From assembly GCA_025917655.1 (NCBI GenBank), contig CP084619.1, positions 4,569,001 through 4,633,000 on the forward strand: a DNA stretch of 64,000 nt. The letters run 5' to 3'. How positions within the stretch are numbered: the stretch's first letter is position 1; each line of letters opens with the position of its first letter. Source of the DNA: Chlorella sorokiniana (Eukaryota > Chlorophyta > Trebouxiophyceae > Chlorellales > Chlorellaceae). Positions 7,257 through 58,948 of the stretch are shown here, piece by piece. The position numbers and the translations under genes are program-made. The notes below the pieces were generated by a model. It did no database searches, was not told where the DNA came from, and saw nothing but the letters and a program-made list of their open reading frames with translations.

Positions 7257-10200
7257 ATGACGGACAAAAAGGAGGATGACAAGCCTATAAAAACACTGAC
7301 AGCAGAGGACATCCGGCTGCTGAAGACGGTGAGTGGTGACTTCCAGCGATCAGGCTGAGCCCAGCCTCAGCCTGCCTGCTGTGTGCAGCACGCGCCGCAT
7401 CGCCTTTTGGGCCGCCGAGGGCGCTGCCCGAGCGCTGACATGCCCCGCTCTTAGGCGGCGGGTATGGCGTCGGTGCCGCCAACCAGGGCCCGCCCGCCCA
7501 CCACCTCGTTTGCGCTGCCTGACACTGCTGGCCGCAGTATGGAGCGGGCCCATACTCCAGCAAGATCAAGAAGCTGGAGGCCGACATCAAGGAAATCGCA
7601 AAAAAGGTGTGCAGGAGCTGCCGGATGGGCCCCACAGCTTCTTGCTCTGGACTGGTCGACACCTGCACATGCTCCGCACGCCCTTCACTCCGCCGCCGCC
7701 GCCGCTGCTGCACGCCGCCGCAGGTCAACGAGGTGTCGGGGGTGAAGGAGAGCGACACGGGGCTGGCGCACCCCTCGCGCTGGGACCTCGTTTCCGACAA
7801 GCAGGCGCAGCAGGAGGAGCACCCCCTGCAGGTGCGGGCCCCTGCCTCGCCGGCGCCAGGAGCCCAGCCAGCGTTGGCGGCCAATGCGCAGCCTTGGCCG
7901 GCACGCAGTGCATGCGCAGTAGCAAGCCAGGCTCTGACGCTGTGTTTCTGCTGGCCGCAGGTGGCGCGCTGCACCAAGATCATCAACCCCAACACCGACG
8001 ACGCAAAGTATGTCATCAACATCAAGCAGATCGCCAAGTTTGTGGTCGGCCTGGGGGATAAGGTGGGCGGCTGGCGGAGAGGGGTGGGGGTTGCAGATGG
8101 TTGGGTACCTGCTGGCGGGTGAGTGCTGGCTTTGTTGTGGCCGGCACTGAGGCAGAGATGCGAGGTGCGGGCCTGGGATAGCCTGTGCGAGCAACCCTGT
8201 TGCCCCCTCCCCCCAGGGAGAAAAACAACAGCATCCCTACCCCTCGCGCATGGCCCTCCCTGCCGCCCACCCATGACAGCCTCCCTCCCCCTGCCGCCCC
8301 CGCAGGTTGCCCCGACCGACATCGAGGAGGGGATGCGGGTGGGTGTGGACCGCCAGAAGTACCAGATCCAGATCCCGCTGCCGCCCAAGATCGACGCCAG
8401 CGTGACGATGATGACAGTGGAGGAGAAGCCGGACGTGACCTACGGGTGGGCATTCCACAGTTGTTGTTGTGTGTGAGGGAAGGGGAGTCGGGGGAGGGGG
8501 AGGGAAACAGAGGGGTGATCGTGGAGGACGACACGGATGCCTCGCATCAATGGGCGGTTGGTGGGTCGGGGTGGGGTGAGGGTGGGGAAGTACGGCTGAG
8601 GACGGGTGCCCTCGCGTGCTGGAACGAGGCGCAGTGCTGGGCCAGCGCTGCTTCCCGCCCGCGTCATCCCAGTGGCTGCCGTGTCAGGCACATGCCCGCC
8701 TGCTGAAGCTTCCGTCCTTGCTGTTCCACCGCCGCAGCGACATCGGCGGCTGCAAGGAGCAGATAGAAAAGATGCGAGAGGTGCGTGCAAGGCTCCAGCA
8801 CCACACGCCTGCAACTGCTGTGCCAGGGCTCTCTCCCGCCCGCCAGCGCCCGCTATTGCAACCCCAGGTTGCCTGCTGCCCACACATCCCCCATCCCCTT
8901 TTTCTGAACCCGCCCCCTCTCCTTTCCCCATCCCCCAGGTTGTTGAGCTGCCGATGCTGCACCCAGAGAAGTTTGTGACTCTGGGCATAGACCCCCCAAG
9001 GGGTGCTGCTCTACGGACCTCCCGGAACAGGTGAGAGCAGCGCTGCAGCGTTGCCGGGGACAAGCGATAACGGGGGTAGGGGTGGGGGTTGAAGGCGGGA
9101 ATAAGTGGGGCGATGCTGGGCGCGGCACTCTGCTGACCTGGCTGCCAGCATGAGCCCAGCCACTAAACTTGCATCAACTCCAGTCGCTGGATTTGCTCCA
9201 GAGGACGCCACCACCTGCTCTCCACCTCCCCCGCTCTCCCGACACCTTGCCGCCTGCAAAGCCACCCAGCACCCCTTCCACTCGCTTTGCCGCCGCCGCC
9301 CCCACCCCACCCGGGCGCGCAGGCAAGACGCTGCTGGCGCGAGCGGTGGCCAACCGCACCGACGCGTGCTTCATCCGCGTGATTGGGTCGGAGCTGGTGC
9401 AGAAGTATGTGGGAGGGGGCGCGCATGGTGCGCGAGCTCTTCCAGATGGCGCGCGCCAAGAAGGCCTGCATCATCTTCTTCGACGAGGTGAGGCCGCGGC
9501 AGCGGAGGATGCGGCTCACCACACATGCTGCTGAGCGGCTGAGTTTGCCCACTGAGTGGGGCAGTGCATGGGGATGGGGGGCCTGCTGCTTGGCATCGCC
9601 GGGCACCGCCCTGCCTGCTCCCTGCGGCGGTTGCTGCTGGGTGTACCGGGCAGCGGCTGGCGCGAAGCTGTAACATCGACGGGCTTGCTGCTGGGGCAGC
9701 AGGCTTCTCCTGACTTCCCTGCTGCAAAGCCTCGCACTGGGGCCTGCTCTCCACAACAGCACCCATTTCACACAATCCCACGCTCCTGTATGTCTGCACA
9801 CCTGCTGCAGGTGGACGCCATCGGCGGCGCGCGGCACGACGACGCCAGCGGCGATAGCGAGGTGCAGCGCACGATGTTGGAGATTGTGAACCAGCTGGAC
9901 GGCTTCGACGCGCGCGGCAACATCAAGGTGCGCTGAACGGAAGCGCGCAGCGCTGCGGGCCTCCCAGCAGCGCTTTTGCATGGCGCCAGCGGTGCACCTC
10001 TCTGTTCCTCCCGCACTCCCCGGTTGTGCTGGTTGAGGCGGTGGAGATGCCATAGCTAGTTAAGACTGGGCGGCCAAGAGCCGGCCTTGCGGCGGCTAAC
10101 ATCTTGTCCCCCAAGATTTCAAGCCAGATTCCTACCGTTCACGCCGCTATGCAACATCCCCGCCACGGATGCTCGACGGCCATGCAGCCGACTGGCATCA

Positions 10201-11405
10201 TTTGTTCCCCCTGATTTCATGAACTTCAGGTGCTCATGGCCACCAACCGGCCAGACACGCTGGACCCTGCGCTGCTGCGCCCGGCCGCCTGGACCGCAAG
10301 GTGGAGTTTGGGCTGCCTGACCTGGAGTCTCGCACGCAGGTGAGGGTGTGGGGGCGGTCAGGGCACATCGTGCCCCGCAGCCCTTTGCATCGCCAGCTGC
10401 CAGCGCTGGGGGCAGGTGCAGCACCGGATGCAAAGCCCGCGACTGCCTGCGTTGCCTGCCGAGCCCCGTCATGCTGTGCTGGCAGCCGCAGCATCCACCC
10501 TCTGCCGCTGCATGCTTTGTTCCGCCCGCCCATCTTGCCCGCCCTGTGAGCTGCTCTTTGTTTGTGGTTGATGATTCATCTTGCGCATACTGCCACGCAG
10601 ATCTTCAAGATTCACACCCGGGCGATGAATGTGGAGCGGGACATCCGCTTTGAGCTGCTGGCCCGCCTCTGCCCCAACTCCACCGGCGCAGACATTCGCA
10701 GGTGTGTGGGCGTGGGTGTGGGTGCGTGGGTGGGTAGTGGTCGTGATATAGGGGTTGAGATGTATGGCAGGGGTGGCTTAGAGGCGGGCATGCCGTGTTA
10801 CTCTGCCTGTGGCAAGCCCTGGTTGGGGCTCACCGCCTGTGGTGTGCCCGGCTGCCCTGTCTCGGTTCATCCTCCAAATTGCACTGTGCCATGTTTGCTG
10901 GCTGAAATTCTCGTTTGGGAGCTCAAGGGTGATGCAATTTTCTGTTCTGGAGCGCAGCGTGGCCACCGAGGCCGGCATGTATGCCATCCGGGCGCGGCGC
11001 AAGACGGTCACGGAGCGCGACTTCTTGGATGCAGTCAACAAGGTGAGAACGAGGGTGCTACCCCACGCTCCTGCTGCAGCGATCCTCTGCAGGCAGCGGA
11101 TATGCACGGGGAAAGGGTGATGGTCTGGGTCCCACTCTGGCTGGGTGGCCCCGGCTGTGCTCCCTGCCTGCAGGTCATCAAGGGCTACCAGAAGTTCTCC
11201 GCCACGCCCAAATACATGGTGGGTTGGCACCGCGCGGCGCTGCATGACGCCAGCTGGGCGCAGCCTGGCGGCTAAGCGCCGTGCAGCCCTGTAGCCGCTG
11301 GTCAATGGCAGGGGCTGTGCTGGCTGGGCTTGCTTTTTGGGTGGTGTGCGCAGTCTGGGTGCCTAACGTCGCTCCCGCCCCGTGGCTGTGCAGGTGTACA
11401 ACTGA
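7257..11405 (+). CDS. RPT1: 26S proteasome regulatory particle AAA-ATPase subunit RPT1 (S7)
   Basis: RPT1 is one of six ATPases in the proteasome base ring that unfold ubiquitylated substrates and pass them into the 20S core. Fourteen exons: 7257-7328, 7538-7606, 7724-7831, 7961-8062, 8306-8445, 8738-8780, 8939-9030, 9323-9487, 9811-9927, 10230-10339, 10601-10701, 10958-11042, 11174-11218, 11394-11405. The product is about 421 residues, the normal length. It shows the RPT1-specific stretch [34 protein letters not shown], the Walker A region (GPPGTGKT), Walker B (IIFFDE), the pore-loop motif [21 protein letters not shown], and the C-terminal KYMVYN. Phases agree only if two bases are restored in exon 7 (C and G runs at 8992-9004), two in exon 8 (9411-9420) and one in exon 10 (near 10280). 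All three sites are short runs, so I read them as sequence errors in a working gene. Confidence 0.97.
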
Positions 11406-12068: not shown

Positions 12069-15000
12069 ATGCAGCGCACTGTAGGTGTGTCGCTGCCTCA
12101 AGGCCCCACGCTTGGGGCCCGACAGGCCCCCTCCAAGGGGCTTGGCAGGCAGCCTCACAAACTCAGGGTGAGTTGAAAGCTTATGAACAGCGTGCCTGGC
12201 AAAATGGACTGCCGCAGGGAACCCCCGACAACTGCTAGCCGCACTGCCTCACACAGCCGTTTGTTGGGCTGCGGAGACCTGCCGGCCTCCCTGCACGCCT
12301 CGGGCGCTCAAAGCACGCTGCTGAAGCCGGCACATTGCGCCATTGAGGCAGCACAGCGACCTCCAGCTGCGCGGTCGTTGCTGCAAGCTGCCGCCAACAG
12401 CCGTGATCGCGCGCCCGTGTGCAGGCCTTCCCTCAGACGGTCAACGGTACTCTGAGCAAGGATGAGGCCTCGAAGTACTCCCCAGAGCAGCTGAATTTCC
12501 TGATGCGCAAGCGGTCCGCTTCGGTGAGCGACGGCCACGTGATGGACGGCGCCGCCGCCGCCGCCGCCAACGTCTCCGGCCTCTCCCCGAGCAGCTGGCC
12601 TTCTTGGAGCGCAAGCGCCAGGAGACGAGCGTGTCGCCCACCCCCGCCGCCCCCAGCCGCGGGCGCAGCCGCAGCCCTGCGCCGCGCGCCACCAGCCGGC
12701 AGCCGGGCGCCGCGCCGCGCGCCGCCCAGCAGCGCCGCTTCGTCCTCCCCCGCGGCCGCGGACGGTCGCGGCCTGTCCCCCGAGCAGCTCGCCTTCTTGG
12801 AGCGCAAGCGGCAGAGCTCCGGCTCTCCCCGCCGCCGCCCGAGCCGGCCGCCAGCAGCGCCCCGCTGTGCCGGGCCTCTCCCTGAGCAGCAAGCATTTCT
12901 GGAGCGCAAGCGGCTAGAGACCAGCGCGTCGCCCGCCCGCCCCGCCCCCTCCCGCGGCCGCAGCCCCACCCCCGCCGCCCCACCAGCCGGCCGCCGCCTC
13001 CCGGACCTGCCCGCGGCGGCGCTGGCGCCCCCGCTGGGCTGTCGCCCGAACAGATGGCGTTCCTGGAGCGCAAGGGGCAGGGCTCTCTCTCGCCGCCCCC
13101 CGCCGAGGAGGCCAGCAGCGCCCCCCGCCTCCCGGCCTCTCCCTGAACAGGTTGCGTTCCTGGAGCGCAAGCGCCGGGACACCAGCGCGTCCCCGCCGGC
13201 GCAGCCCAGCCGCGGGCGCAGCCGCAGCCCCGCCCGCCGCGCCGCCAGCCGGCAGCCCGCCGCCGCCTCTGCCGCGCGCGCGCATGTCCCCGAGCAGCAG
13301 GCCTTCCTGGCCCGCAAGGCGTCTGGCTCCCGCGGCAGCGGTACCGCCGCCAACGGTGCCGCCGACCTCTCCATGTCGGCCTCCTCGCTTTCCAACGACG
13401 GCATGCGCCCCATGGAGGAGCTTCTGGCTTCCCTGGAAGCTACTATCCAGGCGTGCGTCGCCGACGGCCTCATCACGCAGCAAGAGGCCGCCTCCTGCTC
13501 CCCCGAGCAGCTCGAGTTCCTGGTTCGCAAGCGCACCGGCGCCCCCTCGCCCCTGCCGCCGACAACCGCGCGGTGAGCGCCGCCGCGGATTGATTGCTGG
13601 GGAGGGCTTTTCTAGGCTGGCTGGGCCGCCGCCAGCCGCCTTCCCGGCCTCCTCCCACAGCCCCGCCCCGCCTGGATGCGTCCTGGGACGCCGTGTGTGC
13701 GCGCAGCCTGACCCCACCACCCCACCTGCCTGCTTTGTTGTTCTGCAGGGCGGCTCGCGGGAGCGGTCGTCTCAAGGCGGCGCTGCCTCCGGCGGCAAGA
13801 GCAGCTGGGTGAGCTTGCGGCGCGTGTCCGCAGAGCCTGCACCGCCCCACCGCCTGCCGTGCTTGGCTCACCTGGGACGCGCATGCGCATGCGTGCGCGC
13901 TTGCACGTGTTTCCGCTGCACTGGGCCTCCTGCTGCCCGGGATGCCCAACCCCCTACACCTGCATGCTGCTTCTGCTGCTGCTGTTACACCCGTACACAT
14001 CAGAATAGCGATGGCAGGCCCAGGGTGGCATGCTTGCTGAACACGGCGCTGAGCCCCCTCTGCCTTGTGTGTGCGTGTGGTTCCCACCTGCAGGGCAGCG
14101 TGGCGGCCGCCTCGCTGGCGCTGCTGGGCGTCTCCGCTGGCGTCTTCCTCTCCCCGGAGGGCCTGCTGCCCAAGGAATCGCTGCGCATGCTGCCCTCCGC
14201 TCTACAGCCCTCCGCAGTGGAGGCCCCGGCGCCGCCCAGCGCGGACGCCGCGCGGCTGGCCGAGCCGGCGGCGCCGCAGCCCCCTCCGCCGCCGCCGCCC
14301 GCTGCCGCCGCTCCCAAGGCGGAGGCGCCCAAGCTTGCGCCCGCGGCTCCTGCACCCCTCCCCAGCCGGCTCCCAAGGCTGAGGCTCCCAAGGCCGAGGC
14401 AAAGGTGAGTGGGTGGGGGCTGTGGCTGCCGTCACTGCCGCCCATACCCAGGCTCTCAAATGTCTTTCCAAGTCATCCTTCAGCGGGACAGCTTCCCTTC
14501 CAAGACACCGCACATGGCCTGCTCTGATGGTCCTGAATCAGCCTTGATGCACCGGCGCAGGTTGACGAAAAGAAGGCCGAAAAGAAGGCTGAGGCCCCCG
14601 CTCCCGCCGCCGCTGCGAAGCAGGCAGAGGCCAAGGCCGAGCCTGCTGCCCCCAAGGCCGAGGCAAAGCCAGCCCCGCCCGCCAAGGCTGAGCCCAAGCC
14701 TGCGCCGCCAAAGGCGGACGAGGGCAAGAAGGCGGCGGCAGGGGCCGCCGCCGCCGCCGCGAGCGCAGCGGCACCCAAGCCTGAGGCAAGCGATGGCGAA
14801 GCACCTGCTCTTGCTCCTGCGGCGGCTGCGGCTGCGGCTTCCACGGCTGTTGCTGCGGCTCTCACGGCTGACTCTGCGCCGCCGCCCGCTGCCGCGGCTG
14901 CCCCGGAAGCACCCCTGCCCTCGCTGCGGCCAAACGGCACCGGCCAAGGCACCCGCACCAGCGCCCCCTGTGGCAGAGGCAGCCCCTGCCTCCGCGCCCG

Positions 15001-16891
15001 CTCCCGCTGCTGCTGAGGCTCAGCCGCTGCCGGCGCCTGCTGCTGATGCCAAATCGGTCCCTGCTCCCGCCGCCAAGCCTGCCCCTGCTGAGGCTGCTGC
15101 CCCTGCTGCCGCGGACAAGGCCCCGGCTGCTGCGGCCGAGTCGGCACCAGCCTCTGCCTCGGCCGTTCCTGCTGCTGCGGCCAAACCGGCTGCAGCTACT
15201 GCCCCTGAGCCTGCGGCGAAAACGGCGCCGGCCCCTGCTTCTGCTGCGGCTGGAACGGCCACTGCACCTGCCCCCGCTCCTCAGCCCTCGGCAAAGACGG
15301 CGCCGGCCTCTGCTGCCCCTGCTGCGGCTGACGCGGCGCCTGCGGCTGCCCCCGCCTCTGCGGCAAAGCCGGCCCCCCACCTGCCGCTGCGGCTGCCCCT
15401 GCTGCTGCCCCTGCCCCCGCTGCCCCAAAGGTACCTGCCAGCATCAGCAGGAGCTGCGCTTCGGCACTTTTCTGGCACTACTGCTGCCCTGGCTCTCTTC
15501 CTAAGACGCCAGAAGCAGTCCCTCCCGCCCTGATTACCCCCTGGAATGCCGCCCCTGCTCCCTCTGCAGGCTGAGCAGGCGAAGAAGACTGAGCAGGCTG
15601 CCGTGCCTGCTGCTGCAAAGAAGGTTTGTGCCCTGAGCGCGTGCTTTGCTTGTGCGTCGTGCTCTGCCTTCCGCGGCGGCTTTGCTCCTCCCCTTGCCAA
15701 GGCTGGATGACTGTCCCTGGATTTCCCAGCCTGAGCTTGATAACTCTACTGATTTTCATGCCATTTTTTGTTTGTTTCTGTTCCCGCAGGATGACAAGCC
15801 CTCGATTGCCTCCGATCTTGCGGCTGAGCTGGCCTCCAGCCTGGCCGCTGCCCAGCCCGCCGCCGCGGCCGCGCAGGCTGAGCTGGCCGCCGCCGCTGCC
15901 CGCCTCACCGCCAACGGCGGCCTGGGCGTTGCAGCCGCCGCCGCGGTTGCCACGGTTGCGGCGCTGCTGCCCGGCCCCGCGAGGCCCTGCTAGCGCGCAT
16001 CACCGGCAAGACGCCAGCTCAGCGCGCCGACGACCTGCGCAAGCAGCTGGCGGGGCAGCAGAGTGAGGTGTCCCGGCTGCAGGCGCAGGCGCAGGCCGCG
16101 CAGCGCGAGTTTGAGCGCAGCCAGGCGCGGCTGCGGTCTACTCGTGACACGCTCAACAGCCTCAGCAACCTGCTGAACCGCAGCCGCCAGCAGCGCAAGG
16201 TGGGGCCGGGGGCATTGCATTGCCTGACAGCGCTGCTTGATTACCGTCTGCCACTGCTTGATTCACGTCTGCCGCTGCTTGGTTCCTGTCTGCCAAGCAG
16301 TGAACAGTGTGGCACTTTGGCTGGCATGCAGACCCTGCTCAGCAACAGGTTGATCCGCTGGCTGTGGCCCCCCTTGCGTATGGTTGCAGTAAGGAGCTTG
16401 GCGGCCAACCTTCCCACCACCCCACTCAGACGCTGCCATCTCCCAACACTCTGAGAGACATTCGATGCCTATCTCCCAACCCAGTCCAACACCCTGTGCC
16501 GTCTTTGCACCCCCAACAGCCCTGGGCAGCCTGCGTGCTTTGCATCACACAGCTGCAAGGCCCCAATCCCATCTCGTCGCTTTCCTGCTGCCGCTGCCGC
16601 TGCTGTCTGTCCTGCGCATACTGCCCACATTTGCCCCTTTTGCCGTTTGCTGCCTCGCCCAGCCTTGTGCTTCCAAGCCGCCCGCTGGAAGCGGCACTCG
16701 AACCGCACTCACCGCTGGCCGTTGCCGCGTCGAGCCCCTCAGCCGCCACTGTTTGCGCAGTGCGCCCCTGCAAGTCGTGTCGTAATGGACACTTGTTCAT
16801 CCCTACATACTATGTTCTTGTTGTGCGTGTGTAATGTCTCTGCACAGAGTTGCGCCAGCTGGCGAGCAGGCAGTCGGCGGCGGCCTCCTGA
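12069..16891 (+). CDS. Repeat protein with eight PEQxxFLxRKR motifs, hydrophobic segment, Ala/Pro/Lys-rich tail and coiled coil; probably plastid
   Basis: No known family recognised. Exon 1 (12069-12167) is inferred: MQRTVGVSLPQGPTLGARQ onward, basic and Ser-containing with no acidic residues, like a plastid transit peptide, ending AGG|GTGAGT. Exon 2 starts at 12425 in phase and carries eight copies of a motif of the form SPEQLAFLERKR, at about 12479, 12581, 12773, 12876, 13039, 13138, 13285 and 13498. Linkers between them are Arg/Ser/Pro-rich (PSRGRSRSPAPR). Next come a Gly/Ser exon (GGSRERSSQGG), then a segment SVAAASLALLGVSAGVFL long enough to enter a membrane, then SPEGLLPKESLRMLP. A long Ala/Pro/Lys region follows (units like PKAEAK). 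The end is a coiled coil (QSEVSRLQAQAQAAQREFE onward). The last exon probably ends LASRQSAAAS. Length is roughly 1,000 residues. The frame jumps several times in exon 2, where C runs are one base short. It could be two genes, and the first exon is the weakest part. Confidence 0.6.
12479..13533 (+). repeat. Eight coding copies of a PEQ-FL-RKR motif
   Basis: Consensus (S/L)PEQ(L/Q/M/V)-x-FL-x-RK(R/G). Copies are spaced about 102, 192, 103, 163, 99, 147 and 213 bases apart. The DNA between copies is not conserved beyond Arg/Ser/Pro bias, so the protein motif, not the DNA, appears to be what is kept. Confidence 0.8.
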
Positions 16892-21085: not shown

Positions 21086-23772
21086 TCAGGCCTTGGCAGG
21101 GCGCTCCTTCACCTGCACCAGCACCAGGCGCGGGCCACGCAAGCGGGGTTACATGACGGCAGGGCTCCCTTGCGCACCAACACCCTGCCTGCGGTTTCTG
21201 GCGGGCCCAGCAGGTCGCCCTCAGGGCGGATGCAGGAACCGGCATCAAAACAGGAAATGAACAGCTGCTCAACCGGCAGACCCCTCCGCCCACAAGTGCC
21301 CCCCTTTCACGCGCTACCAGAACCCCAAAACCGTTGCTGCTGGCCTCATTGCACACGCATTCACTCACATACACGCGCCCCCCCCCCCCACACACACCCA
21401 CACACCCCACACCCCCACACACAAAAAAAAAAAAAAAACGCAGCCCACCCACCTCCACGCCGTTGCTGCCGGCGATGATGCAGACGTCCACCATGTCCAG
21501 GAACAGGCCGTGGTCCACCACACCCTCCAGAGCCAGGATGGCCTTGGAGGCTGCGCGGGCGGGGATGTGCGTGTGTGAGTGTGTGAGGGTGCGTATGGTG
21601 GGGGCTGGGTGAGAGTGAGGGCACGGCGGTGGTGGCGTCAGGGGTTCCCGAGCGCTGAGGGTTTTGGCAACGGGCTGGGGTTCCCAGGGTGCGTGGGTGG
21701 GCGGCAGCGGCTTGGAGCGGCGGAGCATGGTTCTCGCAGCGCATCCCCGCCACAGCTCCACCCCCGGCTGCACCTACCACCCCACTACAGCCACCACCAG
21801 CGCCTACCCTTGCTGCCATGCAGGTGCGCTCAAGCGCTGCAGCTCTCATGGTGCCCTCCAACCCCCGCGGCCCTGCCTCCCGTCCTCCTGCTGCTGCCAT
21901 GTGTGCCCCTGCTGCCGCCCCCCCCGCACGTTCTTTCCAACGCACACAACACTGGCAACACAAAACCCGCCCTCCCCAGCGCCGCCGCCGCCTCCCACCC
22001 GCATGCGCGTCCTTGATGGGCTCCTCGAAGTACAGGTCGACGATGTAGTTTGAGTTGTCGGTGACGTAGGGCTTGTCGCCTGGGGTAGGGAGGAGGGGAG
22101 CATAGGGGAGGGATTGAAGGTGGGGGTGAGGACGTAAGCGCGTGTGTGGCAGCTTGGCCCTGCAGCGGCACATGTAACCCCGCAGGCACGCCCTCCCCCT
22201 CCCCCTCCCTAACGCGCAACCCCGCAAGCCCCACCACCTCCACCCCTACTCACACACCCCAACGCACCCTCCATGCGCAGCTTGGCCTCGCAGCCGGCGA
22301 CCTCGGGAGGGCCTGCAGGCGGCGCAGCGTGTAGGTGTGGCAGAACTGCACGATCTCGACGGGCATGGCCAGCTTGGAGCCGCCCAGGCCGGCCACCAGC
22401 TTGGAGTCGTCGACGATGCACACAAACTTCTCTGATGCCATCTCCACCATCTGCATGCGGATGGACGCACGCGCGCACGTTGATGGGTGGTGCATGCTGG
22501 GAGGGCGCCACGAACATAAGTGTGTGTGTGTGTGTAGAGCGGGGGGACGCGGGCCCTGCATGGCGCCATTTCGCCCCACTCCTTCCCCGCCCTCGCCCCC
22601 TCGCCCCTCCCCCCACCCACCCCACTCCGCCCTGCCGGTCCGCCCCCGTGCGCCGCGTTGGGAGTGGCTGCGCACCTTCTCGCGCAGCAGCGCGCGCCGC
22701 GCGGCCCTTGACGACATCCAGGCTGGGGTCCACCTCGTCGGCGCCGTCGATGGCCACATCCAGCTTGGGCTGCTCGTCCAGCGTGGCAAGCGGGATGCCG
22801 CGGGCTGCGGGGGCAGGGAGCCCAGCGGGGAGGCGGGGCGTGCGTGGGCGGGGGTGAGGTTGCGGTGGGGGAGGCGCGCGCCTGGCCCGCAGCCTTCCCC
22901 AGGCTCCTGCAGTGCAGCATTGCAGGCTAGCGCCGCCGCAAGCCATGTTACTGCACATCCCAAGCCCCGCATGTTTGCTGCAATCAGCCCTCGAGTTTTG
23001 GGCAGAGGAGCAGAAGCAACAAGGGACGCCTAGCAAACTTGTAAACAAACAAAAAAACACGCACACTTGGCCTGCTCGTAGGTACGGATGGAGGTGGGCA
23101 CGCCCACAATGTCCTTCAGCTCGCCCGAGGCTGCAGCGGGGCACAAGGGGGCGGCGGGGCAGGCAGGGCGACAAGCTCAGCAGACGCGCAGAGCAGCTTT
23201 CGCTCAGCAGACGTGCAGAGCAGCTTTCGCTCAGCAGACGCACAGAGCAGCTTCTGGCTCAGCAGACGCACAGCCCAGCTTTCGACCTTTGGCAGCTGGG
23301 CCGACCCGAATGTGGGCAGGCAGCGGCCGAAGCAACGGGGACCGCCGGCTGCTGCATGATCGCAGGCCCCCCGCAGCGCACCCGCTTCACCAGCCCGCAC
23401 AGAGCCCCCACCCACCCAGCAGGTCGCCGATGCGGTCAACGGCAAAGGCGGCGGTGGATCCGGTGCCAAGCCCCACCACCATGCCGCTCTTCACATAATC
23501 CACCGCCTTCCAGGCTGCCTGCAGAACATTGGAAAGAGTGATGCCTTGGGTTTGGGAGCACTGGAAGCGGGGCGGCGGCGGAGGCGGGCGGAGGCGGGCG
23601 CTGCCGCAGAGCATGGGACGGGCGCGCCCCGCACCTGCTTCTTCAGCTCGTCCTGGGACAGCTGCGCCATGGTGACCAGGCGGGCGGCGCGGACCGCCAC
23701 GGGCTTGCGGGTGAAGAATGCGCGCTGCACGCCGGCCTTGGAGAACACCTGCTGCTGCACTTGGGCGGACAT
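21086..23772 (-). CDS. RPI: Ribose-5-phosphate isomerase A, probably plastid
   Basis: Interconverts ribose 5-phosphate and ribulose 5-phosphate in the Calvin cycle and pentose phosphate pathway. Exon 1 (23772-23635) begins MSAQVQQQVFSKAGVQRAF, a basic, Ser/Ala/Val-rich leader consistent with plastid import. Exon 2 (from 23518) has GMVVGLGTGSTAAFAVDR, the phosphate-binding Gly-rich loop. Later exons have ASGELKDIVGVPTSIRTYEQ, LDVAIDGADEVDP (catalytic Asp region), the KGR...LLREK segment, VCIVDDSKLVAGLG, DNSNYIVDLYF, LEGVVDHGLFLDMVDVCI and IAGSNGVE. The last exon (21112-21086) is nine codons, VKERPAKA and stop. The normally invariant KGRGGALLREK is disturbed by an indel near 22695-22705. The exon joined just before RGIPLATLDEQ has an unresolved phase. 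A 27-base tandem repeat sits in one intron. The gene is head to head with eL36, 224 bases apart. Confidence 0.94.
21423..21438. repeat. Poly(A) run of 16, flanked by CA-rich tract
   Basis: A run of 16 A follows a C-run/CACA-rich stretch (about 21380-21422) in the last intron of the isomerase gene. On the gene strand it is a T run next to the donor side. Confidence 0.85.
22520..22535. repeat. (GT)n microsatellite
   Basis: Eight GT units in an intron of the isomerase gene. Confidence 0.85.
23174..23282. repeat. Four tandem copies of a 27-base unit
   Basis: Copies begin at 23174, 23201, 23228 and 23256, each starting GCTCAGCAGACG and ending CAGCTTTC or a close variant. The third copy is one base longer. 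They lie inside an intron of the ribose-5-phosphate isomerase gene. Confidence 0.9.
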
Positions 23773-45395: not shown

Positions 45396-48300
45396 TCAGT
45401 TGAGCATGACCGGGATTGGGTTGGCCACCGGCTGGATCCCCGCCACCCTCATGGCTGTATCGATGTACGGCCCGAAATGAGCCATGTCCACATACGTGTT
45501 CTGCAGGTGGAAGGCAGGGGCAGGAACGGATTTGTGGACCACAGCGTAATACGACGGGGGGAGGGGGGGCGGGCGGGCGGGGGCGCGGCAAAGGCGGAGG
45601 GAGGGAGCCGACGTGTCCTGTCCATATCCCCGCAGGCTGCAGTCCCCGCCGTGCACGGATAGCCCTCGCAGCAGCCCCCAGCACCCCGCCTGCCCTGCCC
45701 CTGCCCTGGCCCCGGCCCGCCCCAGTGCCCGGGCGTGGGTCGCACCTGGTAGATCCACGGGTTGCCCGGCCAGCCGTCCACGGGGTGGGGGCCGTGAGGG
45801 TCCGGGTGCAGCACGTACTCCATCCTGAGGCGGTACGGGCGGCGAGCAGTACAGCAAAACATAAGCGGGAAGGACCAGAGGAGCGCGCAGGAGGGCCGGA
45901 GGGCCCTGGCGGGGTAGGGAAGGGACCGGCGAGGGGCACGCGGCTGCGCCTGTGCCACCAGCAGCTCGCCGACACACAGCTGCCCACATCTTGCCTGCGC
46001 CCCCGCCCCCTCGCTTGACCAAACACCATCCCGCTCCGCCACCCACACACGGCCAGCAGGCCGGCTCACTTGACGCGCTTGTTGAAGTCGATGCGGCGGA
46101 AGAACGCGTAGTCCCAGCGCTGGCTCACCCACTCGATGTAGCGGCACTCGGAGGCCAGCACGATCTCGCGGTAGTTGTAGCTGAACAGGGGCGGGGGTGG
46201 GGGTGGGGGTGGGTCGGGAGTGGGGGTGGGGGCGGGGTGGGGGTAGGGTTGGGGGATGTAGGGAAATGGGGTGGGGGTTGGGTGCAAGGCAGGTGCGAGT
46301 TGCTCTAAAGCTCGGTGCCGGGTGCTAGCCATGTGCGAGTTGCTCGAAAGTTCAGTGCAGAGAGGCGTGGGGGCGGCAGCAGCAGCAGGTCGTGTTCCGC
46401 AGAGCCGGAGGGGCTCGCCGAGCATGCGGCGCTCACTGCCCGCCTTGGCACACACCATGCCAGCCGTAGAGCAACCACAGCCTCCCCTCGCTGCCCAGCC
46501 TAGCAAACACAGAGGCGCCCTGCCGCCGCAGGGCCCCACCCGCGGATGGTGGAGTTGTCGGGCAGGCGCCAGCCGTAGGGGAACATCTGCAGCGCCACCG
46601 CGCCGTGCTTGACAAACATGCCATTGGTCCAGCCCGCGCCGTGCATGCCGATCACCACGTCAGCGTGGCGCAGCAGCTCCATCGCCTCCAGAAGCGGCTC
46701 CTGAGGAGGAATGCGGGGTGGTGGTGGTGGTGGGGGCAAGAAGTTATGGGTTTGAGGTGTGGGTGGGTGTGCTGGCGGTGCACGGCAGTGCCTTGCTTGC
46801 GCGTCAGCACGGCAGCGGGGCTTCGTTGCTTGCCGGGCAGGCCGGGAGGTGATGGGCCGCGGCGTGCATCTCCCAACCTATGCCCCGCCCCATCCTGCCC
46901 CTCTGCTCTTCACCAGCGCTTCAGGGACCCCCCCCTTCCCGCACACTCACACCCCACCCCACCTCGAAGGTGGTGACGCGCAGGGTGACATTGTAGCGCG
47001 ACAGGATGTAGCGCAGCACGTCGTGCTCGTTCAGCACGCCGCGCGAGAAGAAGTTGCGCGACATGTAGGCGACCACGGGGCGGGGGCCCTCCAGCAGGAA
47101 CTGGTCGCTCTGCGGGGGCGGGCACCGGGAAGCCGGGGGCACCTCGGATCGACTGCTTGTTGGGCTGGGGTTTGAGCCTGGGCGGCCGGCAGCGAGGGCC
47201 AGGCGGGCAGGCGACGCAGGGCAGGCTACGGTGGTCCCGTGGCGGGATGCCAGACCCACGTGTTGACCCAAGCATTGCCTAAAAAGCCACTCGCGCAGGC
47301 CGCGCCCTCAATGGAAACAGTGCAGCCAGGTGCAGCACGTTCGCAGTGTCTGTTAGCGCTGCCGCAGCCGCGCTCAGCAGCAAGCCGGGGCAGCCAGCAG
47401 CGCAGCCAGCAGCGGCAGCCAAAGAGCAACACCAACAAAGGCGAACCCGCTTGACGATGGGGGCATGGCGGCCAGGGCGGCGCGGCGCTCCGCATCATCT
47501 CGGTCGACCTCGGCGGCCTCCTCGCTGCCCTCAGCCGATGCGTCCGCTGCCACAGGCTCATCGGCGGCCTCTGCCACTTGGTGGATGTGCTGCACGGTGA
47601 TGGGCTCGCTGGCATTGGCGGCGGCGGCCGCCTGCTCGGGGTCTGCGGCAGCGTCCGCCTCCAACAGCGCGCGGGCGCTGCCGCAGCCGGCGGCTGCGGC
47701 CCTCGCCAGAGGCGGAGCTGCCGCTGGCGGGGTCTCGTAGCCGCCGCCGCTCGCGGCCCTCGCCGCTGCCGCCAGACGCCAGGCCGCGCTTCTTGGCCTT
47801 GCCGCCGCCGCCGCTGCCACCTTCCTCCTCGTCCGCTGCATTGCTGCTGCCCTCCTCGCCAACATCCTGCTGCTGCCCCTTTGCCTGCAGGTCCACCGGT
47901 CCCTGGCCGCCCTTCAACGCCGCCTCTATTTTGGCCACTTCCTGCCGTCGCTTGGCCCACATCCTGCAGCGCAGCGGGCACAGCGGGCAGGCCATACAGC
48001 TGCTGTCGGCGCAACTGCGGCCCTCAGGGATGCAGGTACCAGCTTCCCAGCTGGCCCGGCGCGAGCAGCCGCCGCCGTCGGGCCGCTCGATTGATGCTTG
48101 CAACACGCTATGAGCGCGCGTCCCCACCTTGAACTCATGCACACATACCGACACAGCGGAACGCCACTCCCCAAGCAGCCAACCACTGATACGACACGCG
48201 CACACGACACACCCCCAAGAGCGAAAGACAGGGAAACATGTGCCCCCTGTCTGCCTCACCACCAGCCCCAGCCCCAGCCCGCCCGCTTACTCTTTCAGCT

Positions 48301-57520: not shown

Positions 57521-57757
57521 GAATTATGCTGGGTTACCATGTCTCGTCGGTTTGAAGCGGCATTGTCGCGCAATCGTCAAAGGCAGTCCGAATGTACTGC
57601 TCCATGCTTGCAAAAATGTGGGCCAGACAACCGGCAGCTGCCAGTTCGCTTCATTTGCTGAGGACAAACTCGCATTACGCCAGGAGGTTGCCCCTCCTCG
57701 CGCACGCGGTCCGCACCCTTTTGGGCAGTGCTCCTCCCAGCCCATCACGACGCCAAA
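57521..57757. promoter_or_regulatory. Short divergent promoter region (CCDC112-like / ZCCHC10-like)
   Basis: 237 bases between the proposed start codons. No clear motif seen. Confidence 0.35.
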
Positions 57758-58948
57758 ATGAGTGGATTGATTGGATCCGGAGCTCACCAGATGCAGGGCC
57801 GTTACAGGCACCAGGTGGGTTCATCACCGCTGGTTTTGTGTTGCCCGTGCTGTTTGCAGCGCCATCATCTGGCCCCCATCTCGCAAACTGGTCCCAGCGA
57901 CACTATCTTTGTCGGCGCCTTCCGCGATTGCTGCTACGTCGGCACCCTCTCCTGCCCACCGACCTTGCCGCCCGCTCCTTCTGCTGTTCAGGGCGGCTTT
58001 GGCCAGCAGCGGCAGGGCGGCGAGCCCACGTGCCAAAAGTGCCTGCAGAAGGGTCATTACACGTACGAGTGCAAGAACGAGCGTGCATACGTCAGCCGCC
58101 CCACCCGCACGCAGCAGCTGCGCAACCCCGAGTGCGTCGCGGGGCCGCACGGCTGCTTGACTGCCTCGCGCTACTGCTTGGCCTGCCTCGCGCCGGCCGC
58201 TGCAAGGCAGACTTTTCTCGCCACGCGCAAGGCCAGGTTGACGCATGTAGCTGCCGTCCAGGACGGGCATGGAGGCGGTCAACCGCCGCCCGTGCCAAGC
58301 CCTGCACAGGCCGCGGTGTGTGGCATCACCGCCTTGCTCAGTCCCATGCCCTCGCCCTGTTCACGTCGCGGCATGCAGGCTCGTCCCCGCTTTTTAGACG
58401 CATCGGAGCTGCCGCCGGAGCTGCGTGACCGCGAGGAGGCGGCCAAAGAGGCTGCGGGGAAGCCGTCAAAGCGCAAGCGCAAGCACTCTTCCTCTTCCTC
58501 GTCTTCTGGCAGCAGCAGCACCTCCTCCTCTTCTTCAGGCAGCGGCAGCAGCAGCAGCAGCAGTGACAGCGACTCCTCTTCAGGCAGCAGCAGCAGCAGC
58601 AGCGGCGCCTCCGGTTCGTCGTCCGTCCAGCAGCGGCTCCTCCTCCTCCTCCTCCTCCTCAGGGACATCCTCCTCTGGCAGCGGCTCCTCCTCCTCCTCC
58701 TCGGGTTCCAGCGGCAGCAGCTCCAGCAGCGGCTCCGATTCGGGCTCGGGCAGCGGCAGCGACCGCAGCGCAGGCCGGCAGCGTCGCGGCGGCCGGCGGG
58801 AGGCCAAGCGGGACGCCAAGCGGGCTCAGCCGTCCGAGCGGCACGCCAGGACGTGGCCGCAGCCCAATATTACGAGGACGGCGGCAAGCGGAACAGGCGC
58901 AGCCGCAGCGGCGAGCGCGGCAAGCAGCGGCGGCGCTCACCTAGCTGA
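57758..58948 (+). CDS. ZCCHC10: ZCCHC10-like CCHC zinc-knuckle protein with long Ser-rich tail
   Basis: ZCCHC10 proteins carry one CCHC zinc knuckle and a serine-rich tail; they are nuclear, probably RNA-related, and poorly understood. Exon 1 (57758-57814) is [19 protein letters not shown]. Exon 2 (57992 to about 58131) holds the knuckle [14 protein letters not shown], then [19 protein letters not shown]; the human match is CQKCLEFGHWTYEC followed by RPSRT. Exon 3 (from about 58379) has [37 protein letters not shown], then more than 100 Ser/Gly/Asp residues. The frame drifts inside the Ser-coding TCC/AGC repeats (58480-58740). It ends in a basic tail ([20 protein letters not shown]) at 58948. 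The exon 2-3 junction is one base out of phase. Confidence 0.85.

Follow-up and report, generated by a model that had tools for sequence, protein, structure and literature searches.

In Chlamydomonas, a single motif directs many proteins to Rubisco, joining the pyrenoid matrix, membranes and starch. The gene considered here lies on the + strand of a 64,000-nucleotide stretch of Chlorella sorokiniana DNA (assembly GCA_025917655.1, contig CP084619.1, positions 4,569,001 to 4,633,000; termed the window, in which all positions are numbered) and carries eight copies of a motif of the CSLinker family. Its product is probably, at a rough probability of 0.6, a plastid protein of ~1,000 residues that tethers the pyrenoid Rubisco matrix to a membrane, as a counterpart of the Chlamydomonas RBMP proteins that binds the Rubisco large subunit (RbcL).

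The described system closest to this gene is CsLinker (CSI2_123000012064) of Chlorella sorokiniana UTEX1230, a fragment of which has been solved by cryogenic electron microscopy in complex with Chlorella Rubisco (PDB 8Q05; PMC11570498). In this complex, Arg176 and Lys177 form salt bridges to Glu51 and Asp86 of one RbcL, Phe173 occupies an RbcL pocket of Ile87 and Tyr97, Leu174 is also in contact, and Gln170 possibly takes part in a bonding network with RbcL (PMC11570498). A single CsLinker helix binds with an affinity of 103 µM and a pair with 1.21 µM, ~100 times better (PMC11570498). More generally, the pyrenoid-linker features used by FLIPPer are a mostly disordered chain and helical repeats 20-120 residues apart (PMC11570498). 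RBMP-type proteins are proposed to link the matrix to tubules (PMC10473226). SAGA1, SAGA2 and MITH1 are coiled-coil pyrenoid proteins; SAGA1 and SAGA2 have Rubisco-binding motifs, and SAGA1 together with MITH1 draws membranes through the matrix (PMC11649565, PMC13167743). Chlorella pyrenoids are bisected by a thylakoid disc (PMC13159521).

When the window is translated in six frames, the pattern EQxxF[LMIV]xRK occurs eight times at the locus studied here, always on the + strand; the first codons lie at 12485-13505, and the total span is 12485-13535 (~1 kb). There is no match elsewhere in the window in any of the six frames. A chance origin of the eight motifs is excluded because no match arises when the window is simulated 150 times with a first-order Markov model or when the residues of the exon-2 open reading frame (ORF), which itself holds six, are shuffled 20,000 times. 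The eight copies described in an earlier note on this DNA are thus real. The even scatter reported there is not: successive spacings are 34.7, 64.3, 34.0, 54.7, 32.3, 49.0 and 71.0 residues, with short and long spacings alternating over the first six intervals. On alignment, P, E, Q, F, L, R and K are invariant in all eight copies, and the variable positions between them hold L/Q/M/V, A/N/E and E/M/A/V. The motif had been written as PEQxxFLxRKR; its last Arg is replaced by Gly in motif 5 and by Ala in motif 7. The linkers after motifs 2, 4 and 6 are mutually alike (0 of 1000 shuffles for all three pairs), whereas those after motifs 3 and 5 are not (715 of 1000), and a two-motif duplication unit as the origin of the repeat is therefore only half supported.

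Membership of a Rubisco-binding family is indicated by the profile of the Pfam CSLinker motif, PF24429, which matches the exon-2 frame at 12407-13573 in four stretches (E=4.2e-27, 93.8 bits, compared with 109.5 bits for the CsLinker fragment of known structure). When motif pieces were scanned singly against the curated cut-off of 27 bits, five of six passed and the motif 1 piece failed; the piece holding motifs 7 and 8 scored 39.9 bits, and motif 7 provided its best-matching stretch. From the motif region, three further ORFs, two antisense and one out of frame, gave no score. Judged by score, the gene product is a PF24429 member, and with a Pfam entry in place for the motif, this protein may have been catalogued before. 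Searched against 177,635 distinct PDB sequences (E<=10), the 25-residue stretch around motif 3 has a single match, the alpha3-alpha4 segment of CsLinker (8q05 chain Z, E=7.7e-5), and the whole 389-residue exon-2 frame again matches only this chain (E=0.096). Furthermore, CsLinker contact residues Q170, F173, L174, R176 and K177 correspond by position to the motif Q, F, L, R and K, all invariant in eight of eight copies. Conservation of the contacts alone is modest support for the Rubisco reading: the odds that five given positions out of eleven all belong to the seven invariant ones are 0.045 (calculated by hand). Taken with the PF24429 match and the sole PDB match to CsLinker, however, the five kept contact residues support by homology a Rubisco-binding role for the motif. 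The proposal of a Rubisco linker or tether in the earlier note, with its possible relation to the Chlorella linker, is supported on the same grounds.

The predicted shape of exon 2 is linker-like. AlphaFold2 (AF2), given the single exon-2 sequence, returns a mostly disordered chain (mean predicted local distance difference test score, pLDDT, 53.9) with helices at motifs 1, 3, 4, 6 and 8, five of the six in-frame motifs; no helix is predicted at the sites of motifs 2 and 5, which are out of frame there and serve as an internal control. Disorder, isolated helices and all seven spacings (32-71 residues, within 20-120) agree with the FLIPPer-type features. AF2 also predicts an extra helical element before motif 8, for which the PDB search returned no relative (two matches, both E=1.2). 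A SHOCT-like label for this element found no PDB or NCBIfam support and was dropped. The stretches before motifs 1 (DEASKYSPEQL) and 8 (QEAASCSPEQL) are alike, and the first and last motifs may form a distinct subtype.

Like this protein, EPYC1 carries short helices repeated on a disordered chain and spaced to bridge Rubiscos, but it uses another motif and another Rubisco subunit. The EPYC1/Volvocales pattern [DN]W[RK]xx[LIVA] has no match in the protein, whose sole Trp is residue 413; the earlier description of a motif unlike that of EPYC1 was correct. The Chlamydomonas proteins RBMP1, RBMP2 and Cre03.g172700, membrane proteins or candidate tethers, follow the logic proposed here in combining Rubisco-binding motifs with a membrane part or long helix. 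However, they carry the EPYC1-type motif, a presumed binder of the small subunit that is absent here, and neither a bestrophin nor a rhodanese domain is among the Pfam matches of the pieces scanned. SAGA1, SAGA2 and MITH1 share the coiled coil predicted here and differ in that the motif here is of the CSLinker type; Pfam scans of the gene pieces gave no match to the CBM20 starch-binding domain, a SAGA feature. The literature searched, which mostly lay outside subscription journals and was available in part, showed no membrane tether from Chlorella that binds RbcL. The pattern PEQx[ANE]FLxRK occurs in seven stretches of viral contigs and at least 80 of bacterial and archaeal contigs, none confirmed as a relative.

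Additional elements follow the motifs in the C-terminal half. Of hydrophobic stretches, which the earlier note had given as one, two of note are present, at 14094 and 15919 (hydropathy averaged over 19 residues). The Ala/Pro/Lys tail and the long, coiled-coil-like C-terminal helix described previously are both present. Ala, Pro and Lys account for 46%, 22% and 9% of the tail, whose region contains tandem repeats at 14648-14709 and 15214-15355. AF2 predicts the C-terminal part as one helix of 61 residues (mean pLDDT 91.2) with a heptad score at the level of 1 in 2000 shuffles; Pfam and NCBIfam return coiled-coil families below threshold only. The heptad helix and the Ala-rich nature of the hydrophobic stretches would also suit a Rubisco-bound scaffold, more SAGA-like than RBMP-like, whose coiled coil recruits a partner (a starch factor, a carbonic anhydrase complex or another pyrenoid protein) and whose stretches do not span a membrane. 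This arrangement is considered improbable, and the pieces scanned with Pfam count against it in holding no starch-binding or other partner domain.

Comparison with CsLinker bears on whether the protein tethers anything at all. Both proteins share the PF24429 motif with its five contact residues, multivalent helices on a disordered chain, Ser/Arg/Pro-rich linkers and a putative transit peptide. However, CsLinker has six regular repeats of ~66 residues, against eight motifs 32-71 residues apart here, and SAEQ precedes its helix where this gene has SPEQ. The available portion of PMC11570498 makes no mention of hydrophobic stretches, an Ala/Pro/Lys tail or a coiled coil for CsLinker. Outside the motif, the best three of the eight linkers reach 61, 191 and 726 of 2000 shuffles in similarity to CsLinker; linkers 2 and 6 (61 and 191) appear weakly similar to CsLinker linkers, and the other six do not. 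Given the differences in repeat number, in spacing and at the C-terminus, this gene is apparently not the described CsLinker, one of the two identities considered in the earlier note, and its repeat number and spacing place it outside a strict definition of a CsLinker ortholog. A soluble pyrenoid linker, equivalent or orthologous to CsLinker, is the main alternative, though on the unlikely side. Such a protein would end at the TGA at 13574-13576 or have a soluble C-terminal half, and would condense Rubisco and tether nothing. This would agree with the shared family, with a motif spacing suited to matrix condensation and with the TGA being in frame as sequenced; the differing repeat number and spacing fit it poorly. 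Moreover, a GTGAGC donor covers part of the TGA, with a pyrimidine-rich acceptor (CTGCAG) downstream of it, and hydrophobic stretch 1 lacks its own start codon. The frame of exons 3-4 has no ATG between 13577 and 14186, and this stretch therefore needs an upstream exon. The donor overlap and the missing start codon of the next exon are the reasons why a gene end taken at face value there is not preferred and is kept as an alternative.

The tether reading relies on a gene model of eight exons and seven GT-AG introns, all of phase 0 in the chosen reading, whose frame pieces total 969 residues. The window has the character of nuclear DNA with introns (G+C 66%), and third-position G+C in exons 2, 4 and 7 (0.81-0.98) is high, as in conserved neighbours. 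As described earlier, a transit-peptide-like first exon is predicted; together with the start of exon 2 it gives 45 N-terminal residues with 7 K/R, 7 S/T and no D/E, a putative transit peptide. The motifs had been assigned to one protein chain, but as sequenced they are not in one frame: six of the eight share a frame, a second frame holds motifs 2 (12589) and 5 (13048), and the frame also changes within the tail and the C-terminal part. By eye, the DNA 5' of PEQ in motifs 2, 4, 6 and 7, with a C run, is one base short of encoding GLSPEQ. In the neighbouring gene for 26S proteasome subunit 7, positions 9319-9438 correspond to residues 214-250 of 8amz_H and positions 9422-9496 to residues 248-270, in different frames; this break lies inside one exon, with G runs and no space for an intron. 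Because a conserved gene shows the same kind of break, those of the motif gene are taken as assembly errors, the assembly apparently dropping bases in C and G runs. We infer that the motif half and the C-terminal half, joined across such breaks, form one protein. The several breaks could also point to a decayed gene, or the motif copies could bind a target other than Rubisco, and both are very improbable: the five contact residues are kept in eight of eight copies while the positions between them vary, and the conserved neighbour is broken in the same way. Decay is not preferred because a conserved gene, the proteasome gene 3 kb upstream, has this kind of break.

If the gene does encode a tether, its nuclear-encoded product would enter the plastid, where each of the eight CSLinker-family helices on their disordered chain would bind an RbcL in its N-terminal region, as in CsLinker. 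The motif Arg would pair with Glu51 and Lys with Asp86 in salt bridges, the Ile87/Tyr97 pocket would take up Phe and Leu, and Gln would bond near Glu93 and Gln95. Weak single contacts would then sum to a firm capture of Rubisco; eight stickers should hold the matrix firmly. The two hydrophobic stretches around the Ala/Pro/Lys tail would lie in or on the thylakoid or envelope membrane, and through the coiled coil at its C-terminus the protein would self-associate or bind a partner. In this inferred topology, membrane segments behind the stickers would leave the membrane coated with Rubisco. Several observations weigh against this proposal. Motif 1 falls under the Pfam cut-off, and AF2 places no clear helix on motif 7. 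Both hydrophobic stretches are of moderate hydropathy and rich in Ala, and since the tail contains a third such Ala-rich stretch that reaches 1.69, hydropathy alone is no proof of membrane spans. As sequenced, the frame of motif 8 runs into the TGA at 13574-13576, the phase-0 join was obtained by switching frame over the final ten residues of exon 2, and the AG taken for exon 8 lies two bases beyond the nearest one. Finally, third-position G+C is low in exons 5 and 6 (0.44-0.67, against 0.83-0.98 in exon 2).

Table 1. Coordinates of the predicted exons, motif copies and other elements of the motif gene.
Feature	Positions	Strand	Remarks
Exon 1, start codon and 33 residues	12069-12167	+	transit-peptide-like with start of exon 2
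Exon 2, disordered, Arg/Ser/Pro/Ala-rich, eight CSLinker motifs in two frames	12425-13572	+	PF24429 on 12407-13573
Motif 1, PEQLNFLMRKR	12482-12514	+	PF24429 18.5 bits, below cut-off of 27; AF2 helix
Motif 2, PEQLAFLERKR, other frame	12586-12618	+	PF24429 49.4 bits
Motif 3, PEQLAFLERKR	12779-12811	+	sole PDB match 8q05_Z, E=7.7e-5; AF2 helix
Motif 4, PEQQAFLERKR	12881-12913	+	PF24429 34.1 bits; AF2 helix
Motif 5, PEQMAFLERKG, other frame	13045-13077	+	PF24429 34.6 bits
Motif 6, PEQVAFLERKR	13142-13174	+	PF24429 27.7 bits; AF2 helix
Motif 7, PEQQAFLARKA	13289-13321	+	AF2: 3-residue helix only
Extra helical element before motif 8 (MRPMEELLASLEATIQACVADGLITQQEA)	13412-13495	+	AF2 helices 330-346 and 352-357; pLDDT 85-92
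Motif 8, PEQLEFLVRKR	13502-13534	+	AF2 helix 360-371; not separately above Pfam cut-off
Exon 3, GGSRERSSQGGAASGGKSSW	13749-13808	+	GT-AG borders
Exon 4	14094-14404	+	opens with hydrophobic stretch 1, rest Ala/Pro/Lys tail
Hydrophobic stretch 1 (GSVAAASLALLGVSAGVFL), start of exon 4	14094-14150	+	mean hydropathy 1.89
Ala/Pro/Lys tail, ~376 residues in frame pieces, introns in span	14184-15623	+	exons 4 (rest), 5 and 6
Exon 5	14561-15430	+	Ala/Pro/Lys tail
Exon 6	15570-15623	+	Ala/Pro/Lys tail
Exon 7	15790-16199	+	hydrophobic stretch 2 and C-terminal helix
Hydrophobic stretch 2 (GLGVAAAAAVATVAALLPG), exon 7	15919-15975	+	mean hydropathy 1.84
C-terminal long helix, heptad pattern, coiled-coil-like	15978-16199	+	AF2 and heptad score
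Exon 8, LRQLASRQSAAAS and stop	16850-16891	+	gene model

Upstream of the motif gene lies the gene for 26S proteasome regulatory subunit 7 (RPT1; ~8303-11405, + strand; PF21236, E=6.2e-14), which has frame breaks near 9412-9422 and, by eye, at ~8990-9010. The next gene downstream (16996 to ~18760, + strand) begins with a secretory-type signal sequence; it may be ferritin-like, and two of its exon pieces have no Pfam match at E<=0.01. Elsewhere in the window, 57662-58945 (+ strand) encodes a zinc knuckle (PF13917, zf-CCHC_3, E=3.8e-19) and has tandem repeats at 58482-58736, and 22212-23258 (- strand) encodes part of ribose 5-phosphate isomerase A (PF06026, E=2e-9). A G-rich 23-base tandem repeat of three copies, adjoining a two-copy 40-base repeat, occupies 46188-46358. 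Scans of the window for tRNAs and Rfam families gave no match.

On a broader view, which is about as likely as not, the CSLinker sticker would be a docking code shared in the Chlorella-lineage pyrenoid and this gene would encode a tether that wraps the matrix onto the pyrenoid-crossing thylakoid through eight stickers on the large subunit. Motif-based assembly as in Chlamydomonas would then have arisen independently on the other Rubisco subunit. A membrane and coiled-coil protein bearing the CSLinker motif would support convergent motif-based assembly of pyrenoids, and the gene would provide a candidate tether for engineering pyrenoids in plants.

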